Source of the DNA: Sulfurimonas sp.
GTDB lineage: Bacteria > Campylobacterota > Campylobacteria > Campylobacterales > Sulfurimonadaceae
Assembly (NCBI RefSeq): GCF_041583195.1
Contig: NZ_JBFHGL010000006.1
Location: 1 to 64,000, forward strand
Length of the DNA stretch: 64,000 nucleotides
Direction of reading: 5' to 3'
Shown here: positions 1,093-43,411 of the stretch, piece after piece
How the letters are laid out: every line of letters starts with the position of its first letter
How positions within the stretch are numbered: the first letter of the stretch is position 1
Translations under genes and position numbers: made by a program
The notes under the pieces: model-generated
Told to the model about the DNA's origin: nothing
The model's input: only the letters and a program-made list of their open reading frames with translations
Databases searched by the model: none

Positions 1093-1120
1093 ACTAAAGA
1101 GTTTTACTCTTTAGTTTCTT
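1093..1120. terminator. Hairpin terminator shared by flagellin and maf
   Basis: A 9-bp perfect stem (ACTAAAGAG at 1093-1101, CTCTTTAGT at 1107-1115) with a 5-nt loop is followed by TTCTT. It sits 8 bases after the flagellin stop, and the convergent maf gene ends in its loop, so it probably ends transcription from both sides. The T-run is short, so efficiency is uncertain. Confidence 0.75.
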
Positions 1121-3159: not shown

Positions 3160-3876
3160 TTACTTAAAAGGGTGTTTTATCCCCAGATACTCTATTTGAG
3201 CTAACGCATAACTCTCTATAGTACCAATATCTCTATGATATACATCGTTTAAAAATGTATTTATTCTTCCCATATAATTTGGCAATACATCGTTACTAAA
3301 GTCAATCTCTTTTTTGTTTAAAGAGTATAAAAACTCAAATATACTAGGTTCACAAATATATACAGCTCCATTTGCTAAATCTGATGGAGGGTTTTCTACT
3401 TTTTCATGAAACTTTTGGACTATACCGAAGCTATCAAGTTCAACGATTCCACAACTTTTTGGATTATCACTATGGAAAAGCATCATAGTTATCTCACATT
3501 CTTTTTGACGTTGTCTGTGGCTATTTATAAACGACTGAAAGTTACAAAATGACAAGTTATCTGCATGAACAACCATAAAAGCTTCTGTTTTAAAAAACTC
3601 TTTAAGCGATAAAAGAGTTCCACCGGTATTTAAAAGTTCTTTTTCGTATACCAGTGTGATATAGTCTTTATATTTCGATTTAGATACAAAGTCTTCAACT
3701 TGTTCATGTAGATATGAAGTATTTATGAAAAACTCTTTGATACCTGCTTTAGTTAAGTTATCTAGCCAATATTCTAATAAAGGTTTACCGTTTATAGGAA
3801 CTAAACATTTTGGAATATGATCAGTAATAGGAGAAAGTCTAGTACCTAATCCTGCTGCTAATAATAAAGCTTTCAT
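3160..3876 (-). CDS. Sugar-1-phosphate nucleotidyltransferase (HddC/RmlA-like)
   Basis: This enzyme should activate a sugar 1-phosphate with an NTP. It opens directly with the nucleotide-binding signature L-L-A-A-G-L-G-T-R-L-S-P-I-T-D-H-I-P-K-C, and V-H-A-D-N-L near residue 110 supplies the metal-binding Asp. At 238 residues it is a bare nucleotidyltransferase domain with no left-handed beta-helix, like heptose-1-phosphate guanylyltransferase HddC. It is the last gene of the leftward operon and overlaps the kinase/cytidylyltransferase gene by 4 bases (ATGA). With the transketolase, GmhA-like isomerase and PfkB kinase nearby, a heptose substrate is plausible but not proven. Confidence 0.88.
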   Translation of the reverse strand: MKALLLAAGLGTRLSPITDHIPKCLVPINGKPLLEYWLDNLTKAGIKEFFINTSYLHEQVEDFVSKSKYKDYITLVYEKELLNTGGTLLSLKEFFKTEAFMVVHADNLSFCNFQSFINSHRQRQKECEITMMLFHSDNPKSCGIVELDSFGIVQKFHEKVENPPSDLANGAVYICEPSIFEFLYSLNKKEIDFSNDVLPNYMGRINTFLNDVYHRDIGTIESYALAQIEYLGIKHPFK

Positions 3877-5291
3877 TGCAACATCAACTCATTTATGATT
3901 TCTTCTTTATTTATAGGAATATTTCCAACCCTGCTAATTTGTACAGCTGAAGCTAAAGAACCAAGATATGCTGCCTGCCAAATATTTGATCCAACTGCTA
4001 GTGCCATTGAGGAACATGTCAGAAGTGAATCTCCTGCACCACTTACATCTTTTACAATACTACCTAGTGCACTGATATTGTCAGTTAGCAGATCGCCTTG
4101 ATTAGTGTTATAGATCATTACACCTTCTGCACCCAAAGTTGTAAATATATATTTAGTTGATGTTTTATCGGATAGTTTTTTTGAGAGTACTACTAAACCT
4201 GATTCAAAATCATTTAGAGCGAGTCTTATTTCTCTCTCTGTAGGTGTTACGAGATCTACATTTTTAAACTTTGATATATCACCGATTTGAGATGAACTTT
4301 GAGAGTCTGCAACTATAAATGTATTGTGATCTTTACCAAGCTTAGAAACACGTTCAACAAGTGTTTGAGTAAGCACTCCATAGCTGAAATCTGAGAATAT
4401 AATAAGATCAATATCTTTTATGGCTTTTTCAATATCGTTTATTATCTTCTCTTCAATCCCTTTATCAATTGAGTGTTGTTTTAAATGGTTTACTCTAAGT
4501 AGTGTTTTTGAACTAGCTCTATATCTTTGTTTTAAAGTAGTAGGTCTTGTCGAGTCTTGATATAGATATGTTTTTATGCCAAGTTCTTTTAAATTATTAT
4601 CCACATATTCATATGTTGAATCATTTCCTATTACTGAGAAAAAACTAACATCAGCTCCTAAAGAAGATGCATGACTTGCAACTATAGCAGCGCCGCCTAT
4701 AAATTTTTTACTTGCAAGCGGTGAAACAACTATTGTAGGATCTTCCTGGCTCATACCTAGCGGTTCACAAGTTATATATTCATCTATAATCGTATCACCA
4801 ATAACTAAAACTTTTAAGTTTGAAAACCTTTCCAGGATAGACTTTAAGTCTTCCATATCAAGGTTATGTCTGTTTATAAATGCGCTATTGTGCTTTGTCT
4901 TGCTTGTAGGTAGTTGAAACTCTTCATTTAAAAGATCAAGAGAAGCAAATCCTATCTCTCCAGAGGTAAATAGCAGTTTTCCGCCATATGAATTTATTGT
5001 ATCAAGCTCCGGATTGTATTTGTCTGAAAACTCTTTTCCTTTAACGACAATATCTGGTCTATTTTTCTTGATATATTCAACAGCATTATCTTCTAAAATA
5101 AAAGCTTCATCTACATAGCTTGTCGCATTTATTGACTCTAATCTCACTTCTTGAGGAATACTGACGTTGTTTACATTATCCGCATTTATCCCAACACTTA
5201 GGAAATCACCGCTTTCTTTGGCAAATTTTAGCAGCCTAAGGTGTCCCGGATGTAAAATATTAAAATCACCGCTTACAAAAACTTTTTTCAT
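3873..5291 (-). CDS. Bifunctional nucleotidyltransferase/PfkB sugar kinase, reversed HldE-like order
   Basis: Two catalytic domains are fused. Residues 1 to about 130 are a cytidylyltransferase-type fold with the HxGH signature (F-N-I-L-H-P-G-H-L-R). Residues of about 145-472 are a PfkB/ribokinase-family kinase with G-G-A-A-I-V-A-S-H near residue 199 and the C-terminal anion-hole motif S-G-A-G-D-S near residue 418. E. coli HldE carries the same two activities for ADP-heptose synthesis, but with the kinase first and adenylyltransferase second; here the order is inverted. The likely role is phosphorylating and activating a sugar phosphate, plausibly a heptose 7-phosphate. It overlaps both neighbours by 4 bases. 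The nucleotide used is unknown. Confidence 0.85.
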   Translation of the reverse strand: MKKVFVSGDFNILHPGHLRLLKFAKESGDFLSVGINADNVNNVSIPQEVRLESINATSYVDEAFILEDNAVEYIKKNRPDIVVKGKEFSDKYNPELDTINSYGGKLLFTSGEIGFASLDLLNEEFQLPTSKTKHNSAFINRHNLDMEDLKSILERFSNLKVLVIGDTIIDEYITCEPLGMSQEDPTIVVSPLASKKFIGGAAIVASHASSLGADVSFFSVIGNDSTYEYVDNNLKELGIKTYLYQDSTRPTTLKQRYRASSKTLLRVNHLKQHSIDKGIEEKIINDIEKAIKDIDLIIFSDFSYGVLTQTLVERVSKLGKDHNTFIVADSQSSSQIGDISKFKNVDLVTPTEREIRLALNDFESGLVVLSKKLSDKTSTKYIFTTLGAEGVMIYNTNQGDLLTDNISALGSIVKDVSGAGDSLLTCSSMALAVGSNIWQAAYLGSLASAVQISRVGNIPINKEEIINELMLQ

Positions 5292-6391
5292 AATCTATTC
5301 TCTATATATTTGAAATTTAAAGAAGGAAATCTTTTGGATATTGATTCTAACAACTCCAAGGAATATGGAAAAATTACTTGAATGTCAGAATCAATATTCA
5401 TAGGATGAACAATTTTTTTACCATAAAAAGTTTTATTTGTTTTTTTTAAATTTTCATCTATAAAACATTCTATTTGGAAGTTTAATAAGGATGCACAAAA
5501 AAGTGCTGGAGGAGATGTCCCAAATACAGCTACTTTTTTCTTTATATCTGAGATAGAGTCTATTAAATTGTTTATTTGAAGTTTATTTATTTGATGTCTT
5601 TGCACATCATTTTCATGCTCGAGTTTTAGAACTTTATCTGTAGCTAACACACTGATCTCTCTGTTAATTTGCTTTTTTGGAAAATATACATTTTTAAAAT
5701 ATTTTTTTAAAATATAAAGCAGTGTGCTTTTATGAAAATGTGATATATGATCTATTGTAAAAATATCAAAAAGGTTTTCATCTATATTTGGAACCTGTAG
5801 AACTAAAACACCGTCTTTTTTTAATGATCGTTTAACAGATGATAAAAACTCATTTAAATCCACAATATGCTCAAATACGTGTATAGCAGATATAATATCA
5901 AAATAATCTGGAAAGAGCACATCTTGTTTATATATGAAAAACTTTTTGAAGTTTTTTAAATTTTGAAGATTGTTATTTTGACTGATTTTTACATCTTGTG
6001 CAAATAAGTTCCAATCAAAAACTTTGGAAAATTCTTCTAAAAAAACACCGGAACCTGTTCCTATATCTAATATATTTCCATGTTCTTTAATAGATTCGCT
6101 AATATTATTTATTAGTGTTTTTGAGCGATTTATAGTTGCTTTTTTAGAATCTGTATGCTCCTCTTCTTTACCATTTGTAAGATAGTATGCTTCATAATTA
6201 CTATAAATATTTTCAATTGTTTTAAGTAGGCTTTCATCTGTCTTTTTTTGTATATGAAAGCATTTTTTACATTCTAAAAGTTGAAAATTTTGATTAGCTG
6301 TTTTATTGTCTGAGGTTACAACTTTTTCTTTAGTATAATCAAACAGTATATTAAAGTCATCGTGGTTGCAAACTAGACAGCGTTTATTCAT
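5288..6391 (-). CDS. Zinc-ribbon SAM-dependent C-methyltransferase (TylCIII/NovU-like)
   Basis: The protein has the three-part layout of deoxysugar C-methyltransferases. An N-terminal zinc-binding segment has C-L-V-C near residue 5 and C-K-K-C near residue 41. A Rossmann SAM-binding domain contains I-L-D-I-G-T-G-S-G-V-F-L near residue 110. The C-terminal domain contains V-A-V-F-G-T-S-P-P-A near residue 288, typical of the family's second Rossmann-like part. Relatives methylate a carbon of an NDP-keto-sugar. It overlaps the upstream methyltransferase gene by 8 bases and the downstream kinase gene by 4. The substrate is not known, but a branched sugar for flagellin or surface glycan is the natural inference. 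Confidence 0.82.
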   Translation of the reverse strand: MNKRCLVCNHDDFNILFDYTKEKVVTSDNKTANQNFQLLECKKCFHIQKKTDESLLKTIENIYSNYEAYYLTNGKEEEHTDSKKATINRSKTLINNISESIKEHGNILDIGTGSGVFLEEFSKVFDWNLFAQDVKISQNNNLQNLKNFKKFFIYKQDVLFPDYFDIISAIHVFEHIVDLNEFLSSVKRSLKKDGVLVLQVPNIDENLFDIFTIDHISHFHKSTLLYILKKYFKNVYFPKKQINREISVLATDKVLKLEHENDVQRHQINKLQINNLIDSISDIKKKVAVFGTSPPALFCASLLNFQIECFIDENLKKTNKTFYGKKIVHPMNIDSDIQVIFPYSLELLESISKRFPSLNFKYIENRL

Positions 6392-7505
6392 AGTCTATAT
6401 TCTCTTTCACAAAACTAATATAAGCTTGTCCCCGACCAAAAGCTGAATTAAAAAATTTCATATTTTTTATTTTTGTCGGAGTTATAGAATCATTTATCAC
6501 TTCTATTGCTTCCTCTATAGCTAATAGTGTCTCTTTTTCAATATCTGATTTCAAATTAATTTTGATTTTTTCTAATATATCAACGATTTTTATTTTATCA
6601 TCTGAATTTTTTATTGCCTTGATCAATTCCAAACAATATTTTGAGAGTTCTATATTGGATTTATAATCTCTGTCTTTTTGTATAAATCTATAATCAATAA
6701 AGTTATGCCATTTTTCTAGCATCTGTTCTTGAAATACTTGATTGTATTCGAATGTATTTGTGGGCAGCTGCTTATACCATGAATAGTTATTAAATATGTT
6801 GGGAGATATACCAAGGATATAATTGTTTTTTAATAGCTCAATAGCATCATTTATCGAAAGTGTATGCTCAAGTATAGCATCTCCTACAAGGTTGTCTAAA
6901 CACCAATCAGAATAACTTCTTGTCATACCTTTTAAAGTATCAAGATGTGATGAAAATGAGTCAACTAATATTTTTACTTTTTCATCAATATCTTCAATAT
7001 CTTTTATTAAAACATTTGCCATATATTTTCTTATTATTTCAAAAAATACAGACACTTGGTCCGATGTTGTCATGATAAATATACCGTTTGGTTTTAATAA
7101 TGATTGAATGATCTTAATAAATTGTTCTTTTGAACTTAATCCTGGTATAAGACCTTCACAAATAATGATGTCGTATTGTTTGATAGCTTTAAACTCTTCT
7201 AGCATCTCATTAAATATAAAAACATTTTTATCTAAATTTTTAAAATTATTTTTTAGTTCATGATAGCCTTGTGTACTCGGTTCTATTAATGTATAAGTTT
7301 TTGGACCATAGCTATATGTAACTAAAGCGTTGTACCCACCACCTGGTCCAATTTCTAAAATATCTTTATCTTTAAAGATAAGATGAGAAGCACCGAGTTG
7401 TCTATATAGATTATTACGTCTTCTTACATGCTCTTTAAAATTATCTATATCTTGAACAACAGGAGAGATTTTGTATTTTTCATAAAAACTTAAATATTCA
7501 TTCAT
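6384..7505 (-). CDS. Class I SAM-dependent methyltransferase
   Basis: A SAM-binding Rossmann core is seen at roughly residues 45-180: motif I I-L-E-I-G-P-G-G-G-Y-N, an acidic post-I T-L-I-E-P-S, and I-I-I-C-E-G-L-I-P-G. A long helical C-terminal half (about residues 190-373) is unlike the small O-methyltransferases and may bind the acceptor. It shares one base with the downstream end of the SDR gene and overlaps the next gene by 8, so it is co-translated in the sugar operon. The methyl acceptor is unknown; the context points to a sugar or glycan. Confidence 0.75.
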   Translation of the reverse strand: MNEYLSFYEKYKISPVVQDIDNFKEHVRRRNNLYRQLGASHLIFKDKDILEIGPGGGYNALVTYSYGPKTYTLIEPSTQGYHELKNNFKNLDKNVFIFNEMLEEFKAIKQYDIIICEGLIPGLSSKEQFIKIIQSLLKPNGIFIMTTSDQVSVFFEIIRKYMANVLIKDIEDIDEKVKILVDSFSSHLDTLKGMTRSYSDWCLDNLVGDAILEHTLSINDAIELLKNNYILGISPNIFNNYSWYKQLPTNTFEYNQVFQEQMLEKWHNFIDYRFIQKDRDYKSNIELSKYCLELIKAIKNSDDKIKIVDILEKIKINLKSDIEKETLLAIEEAIEVINDSITPTKIKNMKFFNSAFGRGQAYISFVKENIDYE

Positions 7506-8245
7506 TATACGCCCCCTTGAAGTTCAATTAATGAACCTGTAGCATGCATACTGTCTATTTCGCATAGTGAAGATATGTAAGGTGTTAAGTCTTCAGGAGT
7601 AGCAAATTTTTTTAATGGAACCTCGTCAACTCTTTTTTTATAATATTGCGGATCATTCTCTTGTTTTATTTTCCAGTCGCTATTTTCGTGCATAATTATG
7701 TTTGGAACTATCGCACAAAACATAATATTATCCAAAGCATAGTATCTTGCACAATTTTTTATATATATATTAACAGCAGCCTTACTCATAGAGTAACATG
7801 GTGAGGCATTACCTGTTAAAGATGCAGAAGAACTGATATGTATAATTTTTTGAATATATTTATTAGCTTGAAATTTAGGAATAAAATAGTTGTTTATCAA
7901 TATTGCACTATTAATATTTAAATCCATAGTTTTATTGAGTATATTTATATTGATTGGATGTTTGTCGTTTATAACTTTTCCACCAAGTGAGTGAATAATA
8001 ATATTTGGCAAGAGCTTATGTTTTGTAAAAAAATCATCTAATTCTTTTGGCATTTCATCTGTTGTAAGATCGCAGCAAAATATATGATGCAGATCTTGAT
8101 TGTGTAGTTTTGCTTTTGCACTTTTTAATCTGTCTATATCCCGACCGTTCAATATTACTGAATAACCTTTTTTTGACAAATCCAAAGCTATTTCAAAACC
8201 AAATCCACTACTTGAAGCAGTTATAAAAACAACTTTTTGCATCAT
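7505..8245 (-). CDS. Short-chain dehydrogenase/reductase
   Basis: An NAD(P)-dependent SDR. It has F-I-T-A-S-S-S-G-F-G-F-E (the TGxxxGxG cofactor loop with Ala for Gly), S-S-S-A-S-L as the catalytic Ser region, and Y-S-M-S-K as catalytic Tyr/Lys. The start chosen is the ATG at 8245, which overlaps the preceding stop by one base (TAATG); an adjacent ATG is at 8242. A longer open frame to 8284 would add an unlikely tail upstream of the SDR fold and overlap the neighbour by 40 bases. It probably oxidises or reduces a keto-sugar or a related intermediate. PtmA-type SDRs occur in legionaminic loci, but no specific assignment is made. Confidence 0.85.
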   Translation of the reverse strand: MMQKVVFITASSSGFGFEIALDLSKKGYSVILNGRDIDRLKSAKAKLHNQDLHHIFCCDLTTDEMPKELDDFFTKHKLLPNIIIHSLGGKVINDKHPININILNKTMDLNINSAILINNYFIPKFQANKYIQKIIHISSSASLTGNASPCYSMSKAAVNIYIKNCARYYALDNIMFCAIVPNIIMHENSDWKIKQENDPQYYKKRVDEVPLKKFATPEDLTPYISSLCEIDSMHATGSLIELQGGV

Positions 8246-8946
8246 TAATCTTTTGGACTTGTACATAACATAATGTAGTACCAAGCTAATTTTTGAAATC
8301 CGGTATGTACCATCTCATCATTCATGGAAAAAGGAAAAATTCTATCAAAATTAATAGATAGCTCTCTCTCTAAATCATCTCTGTCTGGACAGTTAATATG
8401 TGATGCCTGACTTAGTGGACTTTGAAATTCATAGGAATAGATACTTGGTACTCCGCAAGCAAAAAAACCGTTTGGTTTTAGCAGTTTAGAAATTTTTTCA
8501 ATAAATTTTCTACCATCTTCGATACTTAAGTGCTCTAATACATCTAAACAAACAATTGAGTCATATTTCTTTTCTTCATCAAGCAAGAATAGATCTTTTA
8601 CTTCAAATTTAACGTTGTCTCTTCTACTGAGTTCTTGTGCTTCTGCAATCTCTTGCTTTTGAACATCAATACCATAAACACTTTTGCAGTTTTGTGATAA
8701 ATATATTGAGCCTAGACCTGAACCACAACCAACTTCAAGCACTTCGTCTGTTGGCTTTAACATCTTTGCAACAAATTTATATCTGCTTAATCTAATGAGT
8801 ATGTTTGACATACTTTTATCAATAAACTGTGCATACATTGGAGGCAGGTTTACTCCATCGGGATAATTTTTATACACTTCATTGATTAAATCACTATACT
8901 CATCAACACTTTTATGGTATTTCCCAACATTCAAATCTTTTGCCAT
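8245..8946 (-). CDS. Class I SAM-dependent methyltransferase (UbiG/Methyltransf_11-like)
   Basis: The SAM-binding motif I is V-L-E-V-G-C-G-S-G-L-G near residue 69, followed by V-Y-G-I-D-V-Q (acidic ribose ligand), V-C-L-D-V-L-E-H-L and L-L-K-P-N-G-F-F. This layout is common to UbiG-like O- and N-methyltransferases. The N-terminal 60 residues are helical. It is one of four methyltransferases in this operon and shares single-base overlaps with both neighbours. Substrate unknown; methylation of a glycan sugar is the simplest reading. Confidence 0.82.
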   Translation of the reverse strand: MAKDLNVGKYHKSVDEYSDLINEVYKNYPDGVNLPPMYAQFIDKSMSNILIRLSRYKFVAKMLKPTDEVLEVGCGSGLGSIYLSQNCKSVYGIDVQKQEIAEAQELSRRDNVKFEVKDLFLLDEEKKYDSIVCLDVLEHLSIEDGRKFIEKISKLLKPNGFFACGVPSIYSYEFQSPLSQASHINCPDRDDLERELSINFDRIFPFSMNDEMVHTGFQKLAWYYIMLCTSPKD

Positions 8947-10013
8947 TATACAAATCCTAGGTGTTCTACATTTAAGTAGTCTAATATCATTTTGTTTTTA
9001 TTATCTGCTACACAATGGTTGTTGCAGTGGACTTTTGGATTTATTTTAAAAAAATTATTTTTATCACTAAACCAAAACTCTTTAAAACTACTATCTTTTA
9101 TACTTCCCATAAGCCCATTATCCAAGTTATAAGCTTTATCTTGACAAGGGTAAATATTCAAATCTGCTCCTATGACTGGCAGTATTTGTGAATAAGGGCA
9201 CCATTCATAATCTTTTGCAGATGCTTCCTCTTGCCAGTGGTATAGTTCATTTACCTCAAAGTTATTATCTTCAAGTTCCTGTTTTACTTTTATAGACATT
9301 GCTTTTGCCTGATCATAAAACGGTTTATGGTACTCATTGTTTTTAGTACCGTCGTTGTCAACTATACATGGGGATATTTTAATGCTGTCTACACCTATAT
9401 CTTTCATCAACTGTGAAAACTCATATATCTTTGAGTAATTTTTATTATCGACTATAAAACTGACACCGAGATTACAGGTTCTATTTGGAAGACTTGCAAA
9501 CTTTTTCATATTATCTACAATCTTGCTGAATTCACCTATTTTTACACCTCTGTATTCAGCGTAACTCTCATCATCATAACCATCTATAGAAACTCTTACC
9601 CATGTTGCATTATATGCAAACAGTTCGGCTATTTCATCTTTTAGTCTGCTTCCATTTGTTAAAGATGCAAATGATATGTTTGATTCTATAACTTTTTTGA
9701 TTGTATCAGTGAAGTATCTGTATGTAAAAGGTTCCCCTCCACCGCTAAAAGTTATGGCTTTGATACCCATCTCTTTACAATCATCAATTATCTGCATCAT
9801 TTTATCATGTGGAATATAATCTCTCTCAACCATATCTTGTCCAAGTTGAAGATTATCAGCTTTATATGCACAGTACCAACAATCATGATTACATACATTT
9901 GTCGGTTTAATTCTAATATGGATAGGTGCCTTAATATCTGTTATATTTTTTGGTAGCGAGTCGAGCTTATTTTGGTAATGAAATATTTTTAAATTGGAAT
10001 ATTTATTTGCCAT
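8946..10013 (-). CDS. Radical SAM enzyme with SPASM/twitch-like C-terminus
   Basis: The CxxxCxxC iron-sulfur motif is C41-N-H-D-C45-W-Y-C48, which binds the [4Fe-4S] cluster that cleaves SAM. A GGEP-type motif (F-S-G-G-G-E-P-F) follows near residue 95. The C-terminal part has further cysteines (E-W-C-P-Y, Y-P-C-Q-D, H-C-N-N-H-C), as in SPASM/twitch proteins that hold auxiliary clusters. The product starts a radical reaction on an unknown substrate; SPASM relatives modify peptides, sugars and anaerobic sulfatases. Lying among sugar-nucleotide genes suggests dehydrogenation, epimerisation or dehydration of a sugar. A second radical SAM gene is in the same operon. Confidence 0.85.
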   Translation of the reverse strand: MANKYSNLKIFHYQNKLDSLPKNITDIKAPIHIRIKPTNVCNHDCWYCAYKADNLQLGQDMVERDYIPHDKMMQIIDDCKEMGIKAITFSGGGEPFTYRYFTDTIKKVIESNISFASLTNGSRLKDEIAELFAYNATWVRVSIDGYDDESYAEYRGVKIGEFSKIVDNMKKFASLPNRTCNLGVSFIVDNKNYSKIYEFSQLMKDIGVDSIKISPCIVDNDGTKNNEYHKPFYDQAKAMSIKVKQELEDNNFEVNELYHWQEEASAKDYEWCPYSQILPVIGADLNIYPCQDKAYNLDNGLMGSIKDSSFKEFWFSDKNNFFKINPKVHCNNHCVADNKNKMILDYLNVEHLGFV

Positions 10014-10024
10014 AACATTTCCTT

Positions 10025-10687
10025 TTATTCAAAATAGATAAATTCATAATCACCATCATATCCCCATTCGTTATACATCCAAACCCATTCATCCGGTCTG
10101 AAAAAACTTTCACAAGTTAAAGCCCAACATTCAAGATTAAACAATTCAGCCTCATTTCTATAAGCTTCGACCATAATATATTTATTTTTAGCGACTCTTT
10201 GACATTCTTGAACAGCTTTTTTTAGATCGTATATTTTTAGATTATGTAAAGTTGTCAAAGATATTAGCAAATCAAACTCATTGTCTTTAAACGGGTAACT
10301 ATCTTCTGCTTTGTGTAGTGTCAAAGAATCTTTTATTTCCTCTTTTGCATTCTCTAAAGCATACTCACTGCTGTCTATACCGACAACTGTACTATTTGGA
10401 AGTAGCTGTTTTAGTTCGTACAATAAAAATGCTTTTCCACATCCAACATCAAGTATTTTACAGCCATCTTTTAGATCATACTCTCTAATTAGATCTTCTG
10501 CAACAACTTTCCATCTTCCATCATATTTATAACCGCCATAGCCGTACTTTCTATCACCATCCCAATAGTCATATCCATACTCTTTTGATTTAACCATGGC
10601 ATTTATTTTATCATCAACCATTCTTGATACATAATCCCTTGATGTTCTTGTATGAAGCTTTGTTACGATATCTAAAAGTTTACCCAT
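10025..10687 (-). CDS. Class I SAM-dependent methyltransferase
   Basis: A SAM-binding fold occupies about residues 70-175: I-L-D-V-G-C-G-K-A-F, V-V-G-I-D-S-S, and F-D-L-L-I-S-L-T-T-L-H-N. The N-terminal 65 residues contain Y-G-Y-D-Y-W-D-G-D-R-K-Y-G, an aromatic-rich stretch that may shape the acceptor site. It overlaps the transketolase C-subunit gene by 8 bases. Function beyond methyl transfer cannot be assigned. Confidence 0.8.
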   Translation of the reverse strand: MGKLLDIVTKLHTRTSRDYVSRMVDDKINAMVKSKEYGYDYWDGDRKYGYGGYKYDGRWKVVAEDLIREYDLKDGCKILDVGCGKAFLLYELKQLLPNSTVVGIDSSEYALENAKEEIKDSLTLHKAEDSYPFKDNEFDLLISLTTLHNLKIYDLKKAVQECQRVAKNKYIMVEAYRNEAELFNLECWALTCESFFRPDEWVWMYNEWGYDGDYEFIYFE

Positions 10688-11555
10688 TGATAATATCCTT
10701 TATTTTCTCTCCAATAGTATGGCCGTCAATTCCATAGTGTTCTCTCAAATAATCTCTATTACCTATTTTATGAATATACTCATTTTTAATACCAAACTTG
10801 TATATTTTATTATCTACTTTATCTCTTAGCATTGATCCAAATCCACCGTTTATAAAGTGTTCTTCAAGTACAAATATTTTGTCGAAATCTTCTAAGAATG
10901 ATGACCAATCAAACTCACTTGTTAACATAGGCATTGTTACTATGTTTAGATCAACAAAGTCTAAAATTTTGCTAACTTCATCTACAATAGAACCATGCAC
11001 TATGAGAATGTGTTTAGAGTTTGTTTTATTGATAAATATAGGTTTTGTAATATCAATATCATCTTTATGTATAATCTCTTCACCGTTTTTGGCTATTCTT
11101 ATATAACTTGGTTTTTGGCTTTTATATGCATACTTGAAACACTCTATGGCTTCGACTGGATCTGCTGGTGAGAATATGTCAAGGTTTGGCATTGTTGAAG
11201 CAAGTGCAATATCTTCAACTACATAATGTGTTACACCGGCTGGTGCATAAGTTATACCGCTTCCTGTTCCAATTAATATCATAGGCAGTTCTTGGTAGCA
11301 TATGTCGTTTCGTACAAACTCATAAGGTCTCATTATGACAAAAGGAGCGATATTATAATAAATAACTTTGTGACCCATTAAAGACAGTCCGGCTCCAAAT
11401 CCAATATCAAGCTGCTCATTTACTCCTGGATTGATAAACTGTTTGCTATCTTTAAAATCATCCCATACACCAAGTCCGGCATCACCTGCTATAACAAAAA
11501 GTGTCTCATCTACTTTTGCGATTTTTTTGATTTCATTTGCGACACTATTTCTCAT
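10680..11555 (-). CDS. Transketolase-like protein, C-terminal (pyrimidine-binding) subunit
   Basis: It corresponds to the pyrimidine-binding and C-terminal domains of transketolase. The N-V-E/G-I-x-E type segment reads P-G-V-N-E-Q-L-D-I-G-F-G-A-G, giving the Glu that protonates thiamine diphosphate, and the middle contains T-G-S-G-I-T-Y-A-P-A-G-V-T-H. It overlaps the N-subunit gene by 11 bases. Split transketolase pairs are frequent in sugar-biosynthesis clusters, where they move two-carbon ketol units. Here the pair could supply sedoheptulose 7-phosphate or build a branched or long-chain sugar. A housekeeping role is less likely because the gene is embedded in the glycan operon. Confidence 0.87.
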   Translation of the reverse strand: MRNSVANEIKKIAKVDETLFVIAGDAGLGVWDDFKDSKQFINPGVNEQLDIGFGAGLSLMGHKVIYYNIAPFVIMRPYEFVRNDICYQELPMILIGTGSGITYAPAGVTHYVVEDIALASTMPNLDIFSPADPVEAIECFKYAYKSQKPSYIRIAKNGEEIIHKDDIDITKPIFINKTNSKHILIVHGSIVDEVSKILDFVDLNIVTMPMLTSEFDWSSFLEDFDKIFVLEEHFINGGFGSMLRDKVDNKIYKFGIKNEYIHKIGNRDYLREHYGIDGHTIGEKIKDIING

Positions 11556-12336
11556 CTGAAGATCCCTCTAGCTCAAGTATAGCTTTTTGTTTAATTTCAT
11601 CTGTAACTATATAGTAATGCCAGATAAGCTCATCTTCCATGAAGCTAACCCCTTTACCTTTTGTTGTGTCACATATTATCATCTTCGGCTTGTTTGTTTT
11701 AGTATTAACAGCATCTAAAATTGCTTTATAATCATGACCATCAATCCTAAATACTTCCCAGTTAAATGCTTCAAACTTTTTATCTATAGGTTCATATGAA
11801 AGTATCTCGTCAGCTCTTGCATATCCTTGAAGATTATTTCTGTCTATGAATACTGTCAAGTTATTAAGCTCAAGTTTTGGAGCTAGCATAGCTGCCTCCC
11901 AAACACTCCCTTCCTGACTTTCTCCATCACCCATCAGTACATAAACTTTTCTCTCGCTACCTTTTAATTTTAAGGCATGTGCCATACCTGATGCTATAGG
12001 AAGACCATGGCCGAGACTTCCGGCACTTATTTCTATATATGGATTTGTAAGTCTATCTGTATGGGCTGGTAATGTACCGCCATTTTGATAATAACCCTCT
12101 AAATCATCTTTACTTAGAAGACCTTTCTCATGTAAAGTAGCGTATAGAGTCATAGCAGAGTGTGCCTTGGATAGGATAAACAGATCTCTGTTTTCATAAT
12201 CATCCAAGTTTAATATCTTAAAATATAAAGTGGTTAATATATCTGTACAGCTTAAAGCGGAACCGATATGTGGAGAACCTGATAGATTTGCGATATGTAA
12301 AATGTTTTTTCTAATATTTGTAGCTATCTGTTTCAC
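11545..12336 (-). CDS. Transketolase-like protein, N-terminal (ThDP-binding) subunit
   Basis: Residues of the thiamine diphosphate motif are plain: M-G-D-G-E-S-Q-E-G-S-V-W-E followed by F-I-D-R-N-N-L-Q (GDG...NN). The start of the protein has the conserved S-G-S-P-H-I-G-S-A-L-S and K-A-H-S-A-M. At 263 residues it is only the N-terminal third of a transketolase and needs the following gene product to form an active site at the dimer interface. It starts 8 bases after the radical SAM gene and overlaps its partner gene by 11 bases. Confidence 0.9.
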   Translation of the reverse strand: MKQIATNIRKNILHIANLSGSPHIGSALSCTDILTTLYFKILNLDDYENRDLFILSKAHSAMTLYATLHEKGLLSKDDLEGYYQNGGTLPAHTDRLTNPYIEISAGSLGHGLPIASGMAHALKLKGSERKVYVLMGDGESQEGSVWEAAMLAPKLELNNLTVFIDRNNLQGYARADEILSYEPIDKKFEAFNWEVFRIDGHDYKAILDAVNTKTNKPKMIICDTTKGKGVSFMEDELIWHYYIVTDEIKQKAILELEGSSDEK

Positions 12337-12344
12337 TAAAATCC

Positions 12345-13403
12345 TTATATAAAATTAATATGTTCTATAGATGGATTTTTTAGCTCCCATAAATAGTTGT
12401 TAATTTGATGATGTCTACAATTTGGTTGGCAATTGTTTTTGTCTATGCAATCATTGATATAGTTTATACTATCGGCTTTTTTAGCAGATTCCCAAATTTC
12501 TTTAAAAGTGTTTTGAAAAATATTCCCCATTATAGTTTTTTTATCATATTGGTGGGAAAAACAACTGTAAACGTCACCGTTTTCATCTATAAATACAATG
12601 AATTCTAACCCGTAACATTTGTTATATGCCCTTTGAGATGTTAAGTTTTTGGTACTTCTAACCAAGAAGGTAAAATTTTCATCACTAAGATCTTTTGCTT
12701 TTTTTGATAAGTCCTCTATAAATTCGTCATCAATACTCTCAGTAACTTTAAATTCATTATGGGAATGATCGTAAAAGTGTTTCACGCTGAAGTAATCAAC
12801 ACCAAGAGATTTTAATCTTTTTCCATGTTCAAGTGCAAAGTCTTTATTTTCAGGAATAAGTACAAACTGTGTCCCTATAGTGATTTGACTATTTAATCTG
12901 GTTTTTGCTTCTTTTAACTTTTTTATATTTTCTATTACTTTTTTAAAGTCATCATTTTTTGTTTGATGAACGTAAGCATAGTTTTCCTCACTACCTGCAT
13001 TAAATGAGAATCTTATCCAAGTTAAACATTTAGCAAGTATGTCAAAATGTTCATCTTTTAAGAGTGCCCCGTTTGTACTTAATGCGACATCTAGTCCCAG
13101 ACTTTTTGCCAATTCAATTGCCTCAATTGTATCAACATGTAAAGTTGGTTCACCGTTACCTGCAAATACTAAAGATTTTACACCCATTTGAGCTAGTTCT
13201 TTTACAAGCTCAGGTATTTTCCCTTTTTTAAATTTACCTTCATGACCAAGATAATTGTAATGACAAAACAAACATTTGTGGTTACATATTCCTGTTGGAG
13301 ATATCTCAACATATATTGGAGCTTGAAGCTTGCCTTCAAACATATCCGATATCTCTTTTGGATGGTAGTTTATTTTATGACCATCAAGTAGATTACTACT
13401 CAT
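12345..13403 (-). CDS. Radical SAM/SPASM domain protein
   Basis: The cluster-binding motif is C40-N-H-K-C44-L-F-C47. V-F-A-G-N-G-E-P (a GGEP variant with Asn at the second Gly) follows, then a strand pattern typical of the radical SAM barrel. The C-terminal SPASM-like region has a Cys set: K-C-Y-G, Y-S-C-F-S-H, N-D-C-I, N-N-C-Q-P-N-C. It resembles the enzyme at 8946-10013 in layout but is not a close duplicate. The ATG lies in an 8-base overlap with the epimerase gene. The substrate is unknown; it probably acts on a sugar nucleotide or aminosugar in this operon. Confidence 0.85.
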   Translation of the reverse strand: MSSNLLDGHKINYHPKEISDMFEGKLQAPIYVEISPTGICNHKCLFCHYNYLGHEGKFKKGKIPELVKELAQMGVKSLVFAGNGEPTLHVDTIEAIELAKSLGLDVALSTNGALLKDEHFDILAKCLTWIRFSFNAGSEENYAYVHQTKNDDFKKVIENIKKLKEAKTRLNSQITIGTQFVLIPENKDFALEHGKRLKSLGVDYFSVKHFYDHSHNEFKVTESIDDEFIEDLSKKAKDLSDENFTFLVRSTKNLTSQRAYNKCYGLEFIVFIDENGDVYSCFSHQYDKKTIMGNIFQNTFKEIWESAKKADSINYINDCIDKNNCQPNCRHHQINNYLWELKNPSIEHINFI

Positions 13404-14391
13404 TTTTATCTCCTAGACATTCAAACCAGTCTTTTGTAGCATCTTTAATGCTATCTTCATCCCAAACAGGAGCTTCTCTCCATTGTTCAATGTTCTCAAG
13501 CATAGTTTTTACACCATCTTCAAAGCTTACTTTTGGTGTCCACCCAAGCATTCTTTTTATTTTGCTGATATCTGCAAATGTTGAATCAGGTTCACCGGGT
13601 CTTTTTGGAATGTATATTTTTTCTCCACCTAGTAGTTCTACTAAATAGTTTATACTATAAGTATTATCACTGCCTACGTTAAAAATTTCTCCGGTTATAT
13701 TACTCTCGGCAGCTTTATAACAAGCATCTACAATATCTGTCACATATGTAAAGTCTCTAGTTTGTTCACCATCTCCTACAACGGTTAGTGGTTTATTATT
13801 TAAAAGTTGTGCTAAAAAAACTCCAAATACCGCACCATAAGTTCCGCTTGTTCGATGCCTTACTCCATAAACATTAAAAAATCTCATTGATACGACAGGC
13901 ATGTCATATACCTGTCCCCAATGCATAACATATTGCTCACCAACAGTTTTTGTATGTGCATAAGGATATTCAGGTTTTATAGGACTTGTTTCGGGAGTAG
14001 GGTAGATATCAGGTATGCCGTAGCATGAACTTGAAGCTGCATATACAAATTTTTTTAGATTTTTAGATTTTTTAGCAGCTTGAAGTACCTGTATAGTTCC
14101 GTCAACATTTGCTTTGTGATATTTAACAGGATTATTTATAGATGGGACGATATCTGCAAGGGCGGCATAATGAAAAACATAATCAACATCTTCAAAGTAT
14201 TGATCAAGTTCTATTTGGTAGTCTCCTATATCTGCTTGAATAAATTTTATTTTTCCCTTGTGCTGTTCAATGTTGTCAAGACGACCGTTGGCTAGATTGT
14301 CAATAACTGTTACGTCATGACCTTTAGAGACCAATAAGTCAACCATATGTGAGCCTATAAAACCTGCTCCTCCTGTAACTACTGCTTTCAT
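13396..14391 (-). CDS. NAD-dependent sugar-nucleotide epimerase/dehydratase (GalE-like, extended SDR)
   Basis: The N-terminus is a textbook NAD-binding fold, V-T-G-G-A-G-F-I-G-S-H, with V-I-D-N-L-A-N-G binding the adenosine ribose. The catalytic residues are in A-S-S-S-C-Y-G and P-Y-A-H-T-K (Tyr and Lys). R-F-F-N-V-Y-G-V-R-H and the C-terminal K-R-P-G-E-P-D-S-T-F-A-D substrate loop are characteristic of UDP-glucose or UDP-GlcNAc 4-epimerases. The 331-residue length is normal. It overlaps the upstream glycosyltransferase by 4 bases. Specificity cannot be decided from the sequence. Confidence 0.9.
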   Translation of the reverse strand: MKAVVTGGAGFIGSHMVDLLVSKGHDVTVIDNLANGRLDNIEQHKGKIKFIQADIGDYQIELDQYFEDVDYVFHYAALADIVPSINNPVKYHKANVDGTIQVLQAAKKSKNLKKFVYAASSSCYGIPDIYPTPETSPIKPEYPYAHTKTVGEQYVMHWGQVYDMPVVSMRFFNVYGVRHRTSGTYGAVFGVFLAQLLNNKPLTVVGDGEQTRDFTYVTDIVDACYKAAESNITGEIFNVGSDNTYSINYLVELLGGEKIYIPKRPGEPDSTFADISKIKRMLGWTPKVSFEDGVKTMLENIEQWREAPVWDEDSIKDATKDWFECLGDKNE

Positions 14392-15809
14392 TTTTTCGTC
14401 TTTTTATTAATTTGTTCAAAGATTATATTCATAAACTCATCATATGTAAAATGTTCTAACATCTCTTTGGACATATATTTTTTAGGTTTTATATTATTGT
14501 CTAAAATATAATTTAATTCATCTTGTGTTTTAAAATATAAACACTCATCATCCCAAGTATTTTCTTCATGCGTTAAATCTCTACAATCATATACTACAGG
14601 AATAGCCCCGCTATGGACAAGTTCCCCAAGTCTTTGAGTATTGATTGCTGAAGCTGATGCAGATAAAACGTATTTTGCACTATTGTAGATTCTATTTAAA
14701 TCATCTTTTTCTGCTTTACCTTTAAATTTGTCTATGATGTTGTCATTTTTGCTTTGTTTCCAGTTAGATCCATATACTTCTACTTCTTTTGAAGTATTCT
14801 GAGATATCCAAGATACACAAGCAGTTCTTACATAAGCTTGTTGAACACGATTTATAAATGTTGGTTTATCAGAAACATCAACTTTTTTCTTTGCAAAAAT
14901 TTCTATTAATGTTTCAGATGATAATGTATCTCCATTTTCAATAACTTCCATAATATCATTATGGATGTCTTTGTGCGTATCTATATAGTCAACATCTGCG
15001 TAATAGCTTCCTACAAAAATTATTTTATCCTCTTTTTTTATCGTTTCATCAAGATAAAATTGATTTGTATCAACAGGTATAATGTCATACTTAAAAATTT
15101 TATTTTTATCTACACCTTTCTTTAGTAAAAGGTCAGTGAAAATTTTATGATATGAAAATATATAGTCTCTATCTTTAAGGTTTATTGGTTGATTATTTGT
15201 TAGTAGAGGCATAGAGTCTTGGAACCATACAAAATAAAATAGGTCCTTACTAAATAAGAAACTATTGAAGTAATTTATGTTAATGATTGCGTGAGGATTA
15301 AATACAAGTAAATTTCTTTTACATTCTGGATCATACATCCCATAGCTCATGTCGAAAAATACTTCATAACCTCTTTTTATTAGTTCGTCAGCTATATTTT
15401 TAGAGACATATTGCATAACCTGTGTAGATGAGTTTGCAGGTATATAAAACCTTAGTTTTTCACTGAAGTCTAGTTTTGTATTTTGAAGTGCTATGAGATA
15501 GTTCTTATTAAACTCATGTCTAAGTCTTTTAGCTTGTTCTAATGCATTTTTAAAGTTTAACACAATATCTTCTTTAACGTCATTAGATAAGTTTAAACCA
15601 TCTAAGTTTATTTGTCTAGGAAGTCTATAGACACCTTCTCCTAATGAATGTACAAAAGATTCAAACGGTAAATGAATGAGATTGACTAGATCCGTCTCCA
15701 TTTTGTCGCCGGCATAATAACAAACTTGCAACATATGTGGTACCGGTCTATTCTGTTGAGAAGCAACCTTATGAGCTTCATTATAGTCAAGAAAATAAGT
15801 ATCTATCAT
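14388..15809 (-). CDS. Glycosyltransferase family 1/CgeB-like
   Basis: The C-terminal half (about residues 250-450) has the GT-B donor-binding pattern: I-I-F-V-G-S-Y-Y-A, V-E-V-Y-G-S-N-W, Y-N-S-A-K-Y-V-L-S, and Q-R-L-G-E-L-V-H-S-G-A-I-P-V-V-Y, whose Glu normally binds the nucleotide sugar. This matches the Glyco_trans_1_2/CgeB type that labels protein or spore surfaces. The first 200 residues are less conserved. It is the first gene of the leftward sugar operon, so it may add the sugar made by that operon to flagellin or another acceptor. Confidence 0.78.
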   Translation of the reverse strand: MIDTYFLDYNEAHKVASQQNRPVPHMLQVCYYAGDKMETDLVNLIHLPFESFVHSLGEGVYRLPRQINLDGLNLSNDVKEDIVLNFKNALEQAKRLRHEFNKNYLIALQNTKLDFSEKLRFYIPANSSTQVMQYVSKNIADELIKRGYEVFFDMSYGMYDPECKRNLLVFNPHAIININYFNSFLFSKDLFYFVWFQDSMPLLTNNQPINLKDRDYIFSYHKIFTDLLLKKGVDKNKIFKYDIIPVDTNQFYLDETIKKEDKIIFVGSYYADVDYIDTHKDIHNDIMEVIENGDTLSSETLIEIFAKKKVDVSDKPTFINRVQQAYVRTACVSWISQNTSKEVEVYGSNWKQSKNDNIIDKFKGKAEKDDLNRIYNSAKYVLSASASAINTQRLGELVHSGAIPVVYDCRDLTHEENTWDDECLYFKTQDELNYILDNNIKPKKYMSKEMLEHFTYDEFMNIIFEQINKKTKK

Positions 15810-15863: not shown

Positions 15864-16436
15864 ATGGGTATTAAAATGGTTGAGTTCGCAAAAAGCTACG
15901 TTCAAGAGTTGGTACAACTTCTTCAAAAAATAGATTATACTGTATTAGAAAAAATTATATCGAAATTAGAATCTACAAATGGTAGAATCTATATAATCGG
16001 TAACGGTGGCAGTGCAGCAACTGCATCCCATATGGTTAATGATCTGGGAATAGGTCTCAAAAGAAGAGAGATAAAAAATTTTGACGTATACAGTTTAAGT
16101 GACAACACGCCTGTATGTAGTGCTATAGCAAATGACATAGGATATGAAAACGTATTTTATATGCAGTTAAAAGATAGAATAAAACAGGACGATCTTTTAA
16201 TGGCAATCTCTTGTAGCGGAAATTCAGAAAATATTGTAAAAGCTGTAGAGTATGCTAAAGATGTGGGGACAGATGTTATAGGTATAACCGGATTTGATGG
16301 CGGCAGGGTAAAAGAGCTATGTGACATCAGTTTTCATGTTGAGAGCAAAAAAGGTGATTACGGCTTGGTTGAAGATGTCCATATGATACTGGACCATATA
16401 ATCTACAGTTACTACATAGATAAAGATAAAAAATGA
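15864..16436 (+). CDS. SIS-domain phosphosugar isomerase, GmhA-like
   Basis: A single SIS fold of 190 residues matches sedoheptulose-7-phosphate isomerase GmhA in size. Visible motifs are Y-I-I-G-N-G-G-S-A-A-T-A-S-H, with the phosphate-binding Gly/Ser loop, and A-I-S-C-S-G-N-S-E-N. The family converts ketose to aldose phosphates. It is the first gene of the rightward operon and overlaps legB by 4 bases, but biochemically it fits the divergent operon, which has transketolase and HldE-like genes. The start is uncertain: ATG 15864 and ATG 15876 are both possible and neither has a clear Shine-Dalgarno sequence. Confidence 0.85.
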   Translation: MGIKMVEFAKSYVQELVQLLQKIDYTVLEKIISKLESTNGRIYIIGNGGSAATASHMVNDLGIGLKRREIKNFDVYSLSDNTPVCSAIANDIGYENVFYMQLKDRIKQDDLLMAISCSGNSENIVKAVEYAKDVGTDVIGITGFDGGRVKELCDISFHVESKKGDYGLVEDVHMILDHIIYSYYIDKDKK

Positions 16437-43084: not shown

Positions 43085-43162
43085 CGGGGTGTAGCTCAGT
43101 ATGGTTAGAGTACTTGGTTTGGGACCAAGGGGCCGAAGGTTCGAGTCCTTTCACCCCGACCA
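43085..43162 (+). tRNA. tRNA-Pro(TGG)
   Basis: The acceptor arms CGGGGTG/CACCCCG, the anticodon stem CTTGG/CCAAG with loop TTTGGGA, and GGTTCGAGTCC in the T arm fold as a standard cloverleaf. CCA is encoded. Confidence 0.96.
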
Positions 43163-43190
43163 CTCTTTTTTTATGTTTAATTAGACTTAT

Positions 43191-43268
43191 GGTGAGATTA
43201 GCTCAGCTGGTTAGAGCACTGGTTTGTGGTGCCGGGGGTCGCGGGTTCGAATCCCGTATCTCACCCCA
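43191..43268 (+). tRNA. tRNA-His(GTG)
   Basis: Anticodon GTG in loop TTGTGGT. The acceptor GTGAGAT/ATCTCAC is preceded by the extra G(-1) at 43191 that pairs with C73, specific to tRNA-His. CCA is encoded. Confidence 0.95.
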
Positions 43269-43319
43269 TGAATTAAATATAAAAAAGTAAATAACATTAA
43301 AAATTAATAAATTTTTGTG

Positions 43320-43396: not shown

Positions 43397-43411
43397 TTTA
43401 TTTAAATGTAT

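Follow-up and report, generated by a model that had tools for sequence, protein, structure and literature searches.

The described systems closest to the locus analysed here are flagellin glycosylation with CMP-legionaminic or CMP-pseudaminic acid and Maf, the GDP/ADP-heptose pathway (GmhA, HldE, HddC and HldD) and a few radical SAM sugar enzymes. Methyltransferases occur in flagellar islands, and we know of neither a radical SAM enzyme nor a transketolase in the well-known legionaminic and pseudaminic acid pathways; most known examples of radical SAM sugar chemistry come from a few antibiotic pathways. According to passages of the respective articles, DesII is able to deaminate or dehydrogenate TDP-sugars at C3' (PMC11434129), and the dehydrogenase BtrN has an auxiliary [4Fe-4S] cluster with four cysteine ligands (PMC9012708). 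Our search of the literature for an earlier account of a comparable locus returned one sentence on Campylobacter fetus, in which CFF8240_1582-1612, comprising several radical SAM genes, two transketolase subunits (1587 and 1589), a methyltransferase (1590) and two glycosyltransferases, is named as a recombination region, without a function in the passage available (PMC5013579). By this description the gene set is similar to the cassette reported below, the difference being that the passage mentions no heptose-type genes.

The window (the whole stretch of 64,000 nucleotides analysed, from Sulfurimonas sp. contig NZ_JBFHGL010000006.1) carries, between 15809 and 3160 of its minus strand, thirteen intact open reading frames, each encoding 220-473 residues and without internal stops (Table 1). 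The open reading frames, together with Pfam, by which the domain content was assigned, confirm the initial annotation of an operon that encodes two radical SAM proteins, four methyltransferases and a transketolase whose two halves are separate genes. All genes had further been described as coupled by overlaps of 1-11 bases, which holds for nine of the 12 junctions; the remaining three are gaps of 8, 11 and 2 bases, so that this description was slightly overstated. The SDR start used in this count is the ATG at 8242, an alternative TTG start being called at 8284. Scanning the operon for promoters and terminators gave no clear excess over shuffled sequences.

Table 1. Genes of the operon, in order of transcription, and of its flanks (window coordinates).
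Feature	Coordinates	Strand	Description	Basis
GT	14388..15809	-	glycosyltransferase-like, Glyco_trans_1_2, 473 aa; operon gene 1	Pfam
EPIM	13396..14391	-	NAD-dependent nucleotide-sugar epimerase/dehydratase-like SDR, 331 aa	Pfam
rSAM1	12345..13403	-	radical SAM + SPASM, CX3CX2C + 4 auxiliary Cys, C-terminal HxxFI, 352 aa	Pfam, alignment
TKN	11545..12336	-	split transketolase, N-terminal ThDP-binding half (Transketolase_N), 263 aa	Pfam
TKC	10680..11555	-	split transketolase, pyrimidine-binding (Transket_pyr) + C-terminal half, 291 aa	Pfam
MT220	10025..10687	-	class I SAM methyltransferase; adjoins rSAM2 in other loci also	Pfam, locus comparison
rSAM2	8946..10013	-	radical SAM, C-terminal HxxFV, 355 aa	Pfam
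MT233	8245..8946	-	class I SAM methyltransferase	Pfam
SDR	7505..8242	-	short-chain dehydrogenase/reductase, 245 aa counted from ATG 8242	Pfam
MT373	6384..7505	-	class I methyltransferase domain + long C-terminal extension	Pfam
MT367	5288..6391	-	class I methyltransferase, N-terminal CxxC..CxxC stretch (by reading)	Pfam
NTkin	3873..5291	-	CTP_transf_like nucleotidyltransferase (HldE C-domain-like), then PfkB heptose-kinase-like domain	Pfam
NTP	3160..3876	-	NTP_transferase; sugar-phosphate nucleotidyltransferase, HddC/MurU/RmlA-like	Pfam
Flagellin	17..1084	+	likely acceptor	
Maf	1104..3107	-	Maf-type flagellin glycosyltransferase, 52 bases downstream of operon	
GmhA-like	15864..16436	+	SIS isomerase, divergent from operon start, 54 bases between	
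Legionaminic-acid-type operon	16433..25011	+	dehydratase, LegC, NeuD-like, NeuB, DUF2920/Maf-N protein, NeuC, PtmE-like, NeuA-like (the last two names by reading)	

Flagellin and Maf genes flank the operon on one side and the legionaminic-acid-type operon, followed by a FliD-like gene, on the other; it thereby shares with the CMP-legionaminic/pseudaminic acid systems the adjoining Maf, flagellin and LegC/NeuB/NeuC-type genes. The latter score above their curated cut-offs (LegC 572.3 bits against 420, NeuB 521 against 399.65 and NeuC 476.7 against 235.9). Maf and flagellin are present and linked in the window, from which glycosylation is predicted, and a search of the whole genome with Maf found no second full-length relative. 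Considering these flanks and the neighbours of the cassette's relatives in other genomes, a role in a surface or flagellar glycan, as initially proposed, is by far the likeliest and may be held with high confidence.

The same order of all thirteen genes is found in Sulfurimonas sp. D96SM.bin.32, a divergent MAG (locus L035), with 50-90% protein identity, the last operon gene being incomplete at the end of the stretch compared. Between the two loci Ka/Ks is 0.03-0.22 for twelve genes (NTkin was not computable), these ratios being rough because Ks is 1.0-3.5. Across the 398 genomes of the same order, a relative of rSAM1 is present in 27, and a split transketolase (TKN) lies near it in 25, being not seen there in G346 (L125) and in the short stretch of G048 (L146). 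At least two radical SAM genes of the family occur in 24 of the 27 genomes (23 if both are required in one stretch, the difference being G119, with one gene in each of two clusters), and flagellin, Maf or FliD is within the stretch examined in 13. EPIM is 76-88% identical across Campylobacterota loci, taking those at at least 70% identity, and 13 of 27 such loci also have a relative of GT; relatives of MT373 are close to MT220 and rSAM2 in some other clusters. A further relative belongs to an island on an Azospirillum plasmid, where PfkB, SIS, SDR, transketolase and DegT genes accompany it and the 29 kb shown contain no gene annotated as flagellin. The operon, which had been set against the known Campylobacter flagellar sugar pathways, is not a one-off, being a form of a variable cassette that also occurs beyond the order, and its host is Sulfurimonas-like and not Campylobacter.

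This variability bears on whether the locus is an ordinary composite flagellar glycosylation island, whose genes would serve several different sugars or substituents, such as heptose, methyl groups and the substituents of legionaminic acid, and be co-transcribed by location only. The gene content between EPIM and NTkin does vary from locus to locus, and the stretch from EPIM to MT233 is 83-90% identical to L035 while GT, MT367, NTkin and NTP reach 50-70%, both of which would suit such an island. Against this, the genes overlap tightly, and the order of a core cassette (rSAM1, TKN, TKC, MT220 and rSAM2) recurs from family to family, and other phyla have a similar set; a merely composite island is on balance unlikely.

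The two radical SAM proteins are paralogues with 26% identity. An alignment of 24 proteins shows that the CX3CX2C cysteines (C40, C44 and C47) and the auxiliary cysteines C263, C281, C325 and C329 are invariant; in the wider set of 115 family members CX3CX2C is found in 110, the strict auxiliary spacing in 71 and a C-terminal HxxF[IV] in 111, this conserved tail falling where both models have pLDDT under 50. The seven-cysteine SPASM motif is not conserved family-wide, the four further cysteines being the only others invariant in the 24 proteins, although single members may have more, and the Pfam SPASM model is over its cut-off in rSAM1 and below it in rSAM2. The pattern present at the sequence level is that of a BtrN-type Twitch domain (CX3CX2C plus four cysteines), cluster binding being putative, and the spacing of these cysteines is presumably similar in BtrN. 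The four-cysteine auxiliary site is the point of likeness to BtrN (PMC9012708), which is however much shorter, acts on an aminocyclitol and aligns over 226 residues (Z 16.8, rmsd 3.4).

The best match of both models, over nearly the whole chain, is DesII, with Z 25.1, rmsd 4.4 and 339 aligned residues for rSAM1 (on 8hzv_A) and Z 25.5, rmsd 4.3 and 327 aligned for rSAM2, and DesII was also ranked first by Foldseek with the rSAM2 model. The Z values of SuiB and SkfB for rSAM1, and that of SkfB for rSAM2, are within 1 of those of DesII, which amounts to a tie, and as both are peptide-modifying enzymes, the fold does not settle the substrate. Moreover, identity to DesII is 14-16%, DesII is about 100 N-terminal residues longer, and the article cited on it uses neither 'auxiliary' nor 'SPASM', whereas the present family has four further conserved cysteines; DesII acts on a nucleotide sugar (PMC11434129), and such a substrate is putative for rSAM1 and rSAM2. 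The ties, the SPASM match of rSAM1 and the closeness of cassettes to flagellin would also suit radical SAM enzymes that modify protein, be it flagellin side chains or a small carrier peptide, with the transketolase and methyltransferases serving a separate sugar. The recurrence of the split transketolase near rSAM1 in nearly all the genomes instead ties both to one small-molecule pathway, and the Azospirillum relative is accompanied by sugar genes, with no flagellin annotated within its 29 kb, which makes protein modification quite improbable.

The best PDB matches of TKN and TKC are with the split transketolase of Carboxydothermus hydrogenoformans (6yaj/6yak), likewise a two-gene enzyme. In TktA numbering, Asp155, Asn185, His26 and His66 are kept in 18 of 18 split transketolases and the catalytic Glu411 and His473 in all 58 C subunits, residues which we take to be those of ThDP binding and catalysis; a further active-site residue, His100, remains in only 10 of these 18, among them the enzyme in the window. 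His461 and Asp469, presumably the sugar-phosphate contacts, are each retained in none of the 58 C subunits, TKC included, whereas both are present in the full-length transketolase of the same genome and in E. coli TktA, and the C. hydrogenoformans C subunit retains GEDG.SH. Half of the related C subunits (29/58) have fewer than 215 residues and no third domain, some being possibly cut by contig ends. The usual acceptors of transketolases are aldehydes, and ketones in this role are better known from YerE/AHAS-type enzymes, a point against transfer to a ketone here.

Loss of these contacts would suit an unphosphorylated acceptor, as would be needed if the transketolase salvaged a by-product, recycling 5-deoxyribose from the 5'-deoxyadenosine released by the radical SAM enzymes; a deoxyheptose may then be the activated sugar, and heptose-kinase-like and GmhA-like genes are nearby. 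Such chemistry is documented in a passage on Synechococcus elongatus, in which a promiscuous transketolase converts 5-deoxyribose to 7-deoxysedoheptulose (PMC8102628). Nevertheless, nucleosidase- and phosphorylase-type domains were not found among the Pfam matches of the operon, the heptose-kinase model gives the kinase domain of NTkin 216.9 bits and the ribokinase model 53.5, and split transketolases with the same losses occur at L075, L092, L105 and L106, where no such radical SAM gene was counted. Nor, to our knowledge, does a dedicated transketolase generally accompany radical SAM genes, and salvage appears very unlikely.

In respect to sugar activation, the isomerase-, kinase- and nucleotidyltransferase-like proteins resemble those of the GDP/ADP-heptose pathway, but the domain order of NTkin is the reverse of that of HldE and the GmhA-like, NTkin, NTP and EPIM proteins all fall below the curated heptose cut-offs (GmhA 109.9 against 209.45 bits, heptose kinase 216.9 against 345, HddC 97.5 against 300 and HldD 132.6 against 274.6). 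Genome searches located a separate housekeeping-type transketolase, HldD, GmhA and HldE kinase elsewhere, and therefore the copies in the window look dedicated to something else. In addition, 11 of the 25 transketolase-containing cassettes are without genes of the NTkin or GmhA type in the stretch examined, so that the activated sugar may not be a heptose; a heptose-derived product, as initially suggested, is thus plausible from its GmhA-, HldE- and HddC-like proteins and weakened by these scores and absences.

With these same genes in or beside the operon, the split transketolase could act upstream, making an unusual ketose phosphate, either of octulose or of a modified sedoheptulose, which the GmhA-like, kinase and nucleotidyltransferase proteins activate and the radical SAM enzymes trim later; lincosamide octose biosynthesis, in which octulose-phosphate is processed by an isomerase, a kinase, a phosphatase and a nucleotidyltransferase, is a precedent for the activation of such a higher-carbon ketose phosphate. 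The position of the transketolase between EPIM or rSAM1 and NTkin in many Campylobacterota loci agrees with this, as does the full-length transketolase already in the genome, beside which a second should act differently. However, the uniform loss of His461 and Asp469 and the cassettes devoid of GmhA and NTkin speak against a phosphorylated ketose, and this route seems unlikely.

A branched product would fit a transketolase. C-methyltransferases with Methyltransf_13 and Methyltransf_14 domains act on keto nucleotide sugars. In line with the reading preferred below, the sister clusters L034 and L102 have members of one protein family, of which that in L034 carries these domains; MT367 matched general methyltransferase Pfam models, was over the cut-off with neither Methyltransf_13 nor Methyltransf_14 and is weakly similar to the L034 protein (22% identity, E 5e-07).

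The reading that we prefer, with a probability of about 0.4, is a flagellar nucleotide-sugar pathway combining radical oxidation or deoxygenation with two-carbon transfer. The GmhA-like isomerase, NTkin and NTP would yield an NDP-activated sugar, probably of heptose type, which EPIM would epimerise or oxidise. Each of rSAM1 and rSAM2 may then abstract hydrogen from an unactivated sugar carbon to give a ketone or deoxy-ketone, by analogy to DesII and BtrN, and the split transketolase would move a two-carbon ketol unit to or from the carbonyl, resulting in a branched or chain-altered sugar. SDR would reduce the new ketone, MT220, MT233, MT373 and MT367 would methylate the sugar, and GT, Maf or both would place it onto flagellin, with or instead of the neighbouring legionaminic acid. 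As judged from sequence, the probable product of the operon is an unusual methylated sugar destined for the flagellum.

The radical enzymes and the rebuilt transketolase belong to no described flagellar sugar pathway found in the literature. The initial statement to that effect stands as regards a pathway, with the qualification that a similar C. fetus region is in print, without a function in the passage available (PMC5013579). More speculatively, the cassette might represent a new route to carbon-branched or chain-altered sugars for protein glycosylation, in which a DesII-like radical SAM enzyme makes a nucleotide-sugar ketone and a split transketolase devoid of phosphate binding adds a two-carbon unit, the cassette being swapped among Campylobacterota flagellar islands and, in other phyla, forming part of surface-glycan islands. 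Protein glycosylation influences motility, immune recognition and phage binding, and a conserved radical SAM and transketolase cassette at flagellin loci would extend radical sugar chemistry to it. A precise and testable start, in environmental Sulfurimonas relatives and perhaps in the Campylobacter fetus region, is offered by the signature of the radical SAM family, by the genes that recur beside it and by the residues missing from the transketolase.

The thirteen genes of the operon run head to tail, and the operon proposed in the initial annotation proved to be a real unit on one strand, as its gene order recurs in L035, a stretch of Sulfurimonas sp. D96SM.bin.32. Comparison of gene order with other genomes, which that annotation had recommended, recovered there the complete set of thirteen genes in identical order with 50-90% protein identity, the last gene being partial at the stretch end. 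Since both gene order and protein similarity recur in L035, a chance string of open reading frames is rejected. The coupling of all genes by overlaps of 1-11 bases stood for 9 of the 12 junctions and failed for the other three, which are gaps of 8, 11 and 2 bases. The host, which had been discussed in terms of Campylobacter, agrees with that name at the level of the phylum only, the genus being Sulfurimonas (Sulfurimonas sp.; genome of 2.38 Mb in 22 contigs).

Coordinates of the operon and of other features in the window and in two compared stretches
Feature	Stretch	Coordinates	Strand	Basis
Operon, transcribed from 15809 down: GT (glycosyltransferase-like), EPIM (NAD epimerase/dehydratase-like), rSAM1 (radical SAM), TKN and TKC (N-terminal and pyrimidine-binding plus C-terminal halves of a split transketolase), MT220 (methyltransferase), rSAM2 (radical SAM), MT233 (methyltransferase), SDR (short-chain dehydrogenase/reductase), MT373 and MT367 (methyltransferases), NTkin (nucleotidyltransferase fused before a PfkB heptose-kinase-like domain), NTP (sugar-phosphate nucleotidyltransferase)	window	3160-15809	-	Pfam
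601-aa protein inside the legionaminic operon, DUF2920 joined to a partial Maf N-terminal domain	window	20326-22131		
Five tRNA genes	window	43085-43626		
tRNA genes, then a likely mobile island	window	43085-64000		
Integrase-like protein	window	46453-47358		
Type I restriction-modification genes in the likely mobile island	window	57365-63969		by reading
Cassette adjoining sulfate-activation-type genes	L012	14382-18108		
Radical SAM gene and adjoining genes	L185	12423-19841		

Flagellum-related genes lie on both sides. A Maf glycosyltransferase lies 52 bases beyond the NTP end of the operon, followed by flagellin on the opposite strand; in L035 flagellin and Maf are instead found at the GT end. 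A GmhA-like isomerase gene diverges from the operon, 54 bases from its start, and downstream of it come a dehydratase, LegC, NeuD-like, NeuB, DUF2920/Maf-N, NeuC, PtmE-like and NeuA-like genes and then FliD-like and FliS-like genes, where LegC, NeuB and NeuC score above their curated cut-offs and the PtmE, NeuA, FliD and FliS names come from reading of the sequence. In the DUF2920/Maf-N protein Pfam detects no MptE-like domain. Promoter and terminator scans returned 105 promoter-like sites where shuffles had 91.4 (sd 8.9), and 3 terminator-like sites where they had 5.1, with no clear surplus, and Rfam at its gathering cut-off gave no match inside the operon. Sequence searches of the PDB gave only generic methyltransferases for MT220 and no match for MT367. 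Between the window and L035, Ka/Ks is 0.03-0.08 for EPIM to MT233 and the partial NTP, and 0.13-0.22 for SDR, MT373, MT367 and GT (NTkin was not computable), ratios which are rough because Ks is 1.0-3.5.

We have analyzed conservation around EPIM in 79 loci of named genomes, drawn from the best 80 of 239 matches, counting neighbours over 10 kb per side where the contig allows and radical SAM genes with a family score of at least 80. Among these, the 27 loci with at least 70% EPIM identity (by title 25 Campylobacterota, one unplaced 'bacterium' and Pseudoalteromonas rubra) all have a radical SAM gene of the family, with two or more in 24, TKN in 25, NTkin in 22, a GmhA-like gene in 17 and a flagellin, Maf, FliD or FliS gene in 12. 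At 55-70% identity (46 loci from the same best 80), radical SAM genes are found in 12, TKN in 8, NTkin in 33 and GmhA-like genes in 22, and none of the four is present in the six loci below 55%. A second count used an rSAM1 query from L012 (E <= 1e-45) on 398 genomes of the same order, and found a relative in 27, the window's genome counted in; NTkin relatives (E <= 1e-90) occur in 19 of the 398. The stretches around the 27 contain TKN (25), the transketolase C subunit (24), NTkin (15), MT220 (13), flagellin, Maf or FliD (13) and a GmhA-like gene (11), and 24 of them have at least two radical SAM genes, or 23 if these must lie within one stretch; TKN in the absence of NTkin and also of GmhA was observed in 11. 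Stretches are mostly of 20 kb, with 26 kb for the window, a short one for G048, two overlapping ones for G390 and G408 and two separate clusters in G119: absences are thus weaker evidence than presences, including that of TKN near rSAM1 in G048 and G346. The EPIM and rSAM1 counts overlap, at least eight contigs being records in both, and the HMMs for the neighbour, tail and transketolase C-subunit counts were built from members in named loci.

The cassette rSAM1-TKN-TKC-MT220-rSAM2 is seen without NTkin and GmhA genes in L172-L175, four genomes of family f14, and in L176 of family f11. All four f14 stretches have flagellin and Maf a few genes away, and in L174 and L175 an MT233-like gene separates TKN from the radical SAM pieces. 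The five-gene block thus seems to be the core, to which a second module, the heptose-type genes, is often joined. The f14 cassettes near flagellin carry three or four radical SAM family ORFs each, and in L174 and L175 one gene is apparently split into two ORFs beside rSAM1a. In the Arcobacteraceae stretches L042 and L125 both radical SAM genes are present, no transketolase gene was seen, and the block contains a pair of ATPase-like genes from a single family, the one scanned being Pfam ATPase_2. Proteins of 97-243 aa from families F16 (L046, L047, L049, L054, L093, L104) and F57 (L048, L053, L058) lie between a transketolase subunit and rSAM1b, and larger F16 relatives (391-420 aa) before rSAM1b in L088, L094 and L096; the copies scanned (L046, L096, L048 and the L009 copy) have no Pfam match. 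The cassette of L012 adjoins genes reading as APS kinase, sulfate adenylyltransferase subunits and an inositol-phosphatase-like protein, which suggests a sulfated product in that strain. Outside the phylum, one island of Solidesulfovibrio carbinolicus plasmid pDCAR1 holds transketolase N and C, methyltransferase, SIS, PfkB, pseB/pseC and Maf-like (MptE-like) genes together with a radical SAM protein that shares 51.7% identity with rSAM2, and Azospirillum oryzae has SIS, PfkB, transketolase halves and DegT together with a radical SAM gene whose identity to rSAM1 is 31.6%. On Streptomyces vietnamensis plasmid pSVL1 (L185), a radical SAM protein with 30.6% identity to rSAM1 adjoins a second SPASM protein, UDP-galactopyranose mutase, WbqC, DegT aminotransferase and NTP transferase, possibly a small natural-product cluster.

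In 24 aligned proteins comprising rSAM1, rSAM2 and their relatives, the CX3CX2C motif, four further cysteines (in rSAM1 C263-x17-C281-x43-C325-x3-C329) and the C-terminal tail are all invariant. The tail was counted in 115 non-redundant members that reach a score of 150 bits or more and whose 3' end is intact, chains cut at the stretch 3' end being left out; here, as in the transketolase C-subunit count, identical sequences were removed and close relatives kept. HxxF[IV] ends 111 of the 115, two of the four exceptions being short pieces from L174 and L175, and none of 34 lower-scoring radical SAM neighbours; CX3CX2C is found in 110 and a strict form of the auxiliary cysteine spacing in 71. Because the invariant auxiliary cysteines number four rather than seven, they argue for one auxiliary cluster, a pattern likened to that of BtrN, which has one such cluster according to PMC9012708. 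The two AlphaFold models, one for each radical SAM protein, have pLDDT values of 87.0 and 88.5, dropping below 50 over the final four residues, and all 50 fold matches listed for each are radical SAM proteins. For rSAM1 the first match is DesII (8hzv_A; Z 25.1, rmsd 4.4, 339 aligned), tied with SuiB (24.6, 3.8, 290) and SkfB (24.5, 3.9, 293) and followed by BlsE (24.0, 3.8, 298); for rSAM2 DesII again comes first (25.5, 4.3, 327), tied with SkfB (24.9, 3.6, 291) and followed by BlsE (23.7, 3.9, 291). The substrates of these matches differ, being an NDP-sugar for DesII and peptides for SkfB and SuiB. According to PMC11434129, DesII converts TDP-4-amino-4,6-dideoxyglucose to a 3-keto-4-deoxy sugar and also dehydrogenates TDP-quinovose; BlsE is described as acting on cytosylglucuronic acid.

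In the PDB sequence search, the solved structure closest to TKN and TKC is the split transketolase of Carboxydothermus, matched by its two chains. A housekeeping role for the split enzyme is rejected, as a 639-aa transketolase is encoded elsewhere in the genome. In an alignment that includes E. coli TktA and this full-length transketolase, Asp155, Asn185, His26 and His66 (TktA numbering, also below) are present in 18 of 18 split enzymes and His100 in 10. Among 58 C subunits (those under 140 or over 420 aa left out), Glu411 and His473 are always present, the His461 position is always Gly and Asp469 is always replaced; 29 are shorter than 215 aa and have no third domain, some perhaps through contig ends. 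Losses of the His461/Asp469 type are also seen in transketolases of L075, L092, L105 and L106, loci in which no radical SAM gene of the family was counted; the lost residues therefore characterise a broader subfamily of glycan type and do not prove a radical SAM partnership.

The heptose-derived sugar considered in the initial annotation is made plausible by the resemblance of NTkin, GmhA-like, NTP (HddC/MurU/RmlA-like) and EPIM proteins to heptose enzymes, but all score below the curated cut-offs: 216.9 bits of 345 for the NTkin kinase domain, 109.9 of 209.45 for the GmhA-like protein, 97.5 of 300 for NTP and 132.6 of 274.6 for EPIM. Separate genomic copies score higher (HldD 338.4, HldE kinase 377.9, and GmhA 206, just under its cut-off), so that the window's genes are, as judged from these scores, a paralogous set.

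In print, within a search of papers outside subscription, radical SAM and transketolase genes were found together in such a region only in PMC5013579, which gives cassette-type genes as a bare gene list in a C. fetus recombination region. PMC8743553 lists a radical SAM gene within a cluster of C. jejuni that bears the label methylation/capsule biosynthesis, and the word 'transketolase' is absent from its text. The view that this is not a known pathway holds as far as that search goes, which found no described pathway for the cassette; the similar C. fetus list was given without a function. The most economical reading, in which we infer every reaction from anatomy, neighbourhood and residue patterns, would be that a heptose-type sugar is activated, EPIM, the radical SAM enzymes or both form a ketone, the split transketolase transfers a two-carbon unit, SDR reduces and the methyltransferases methylate the product, and the sugar is passed to flagellin. 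Flagellar glycan islands as such are of a known kind.
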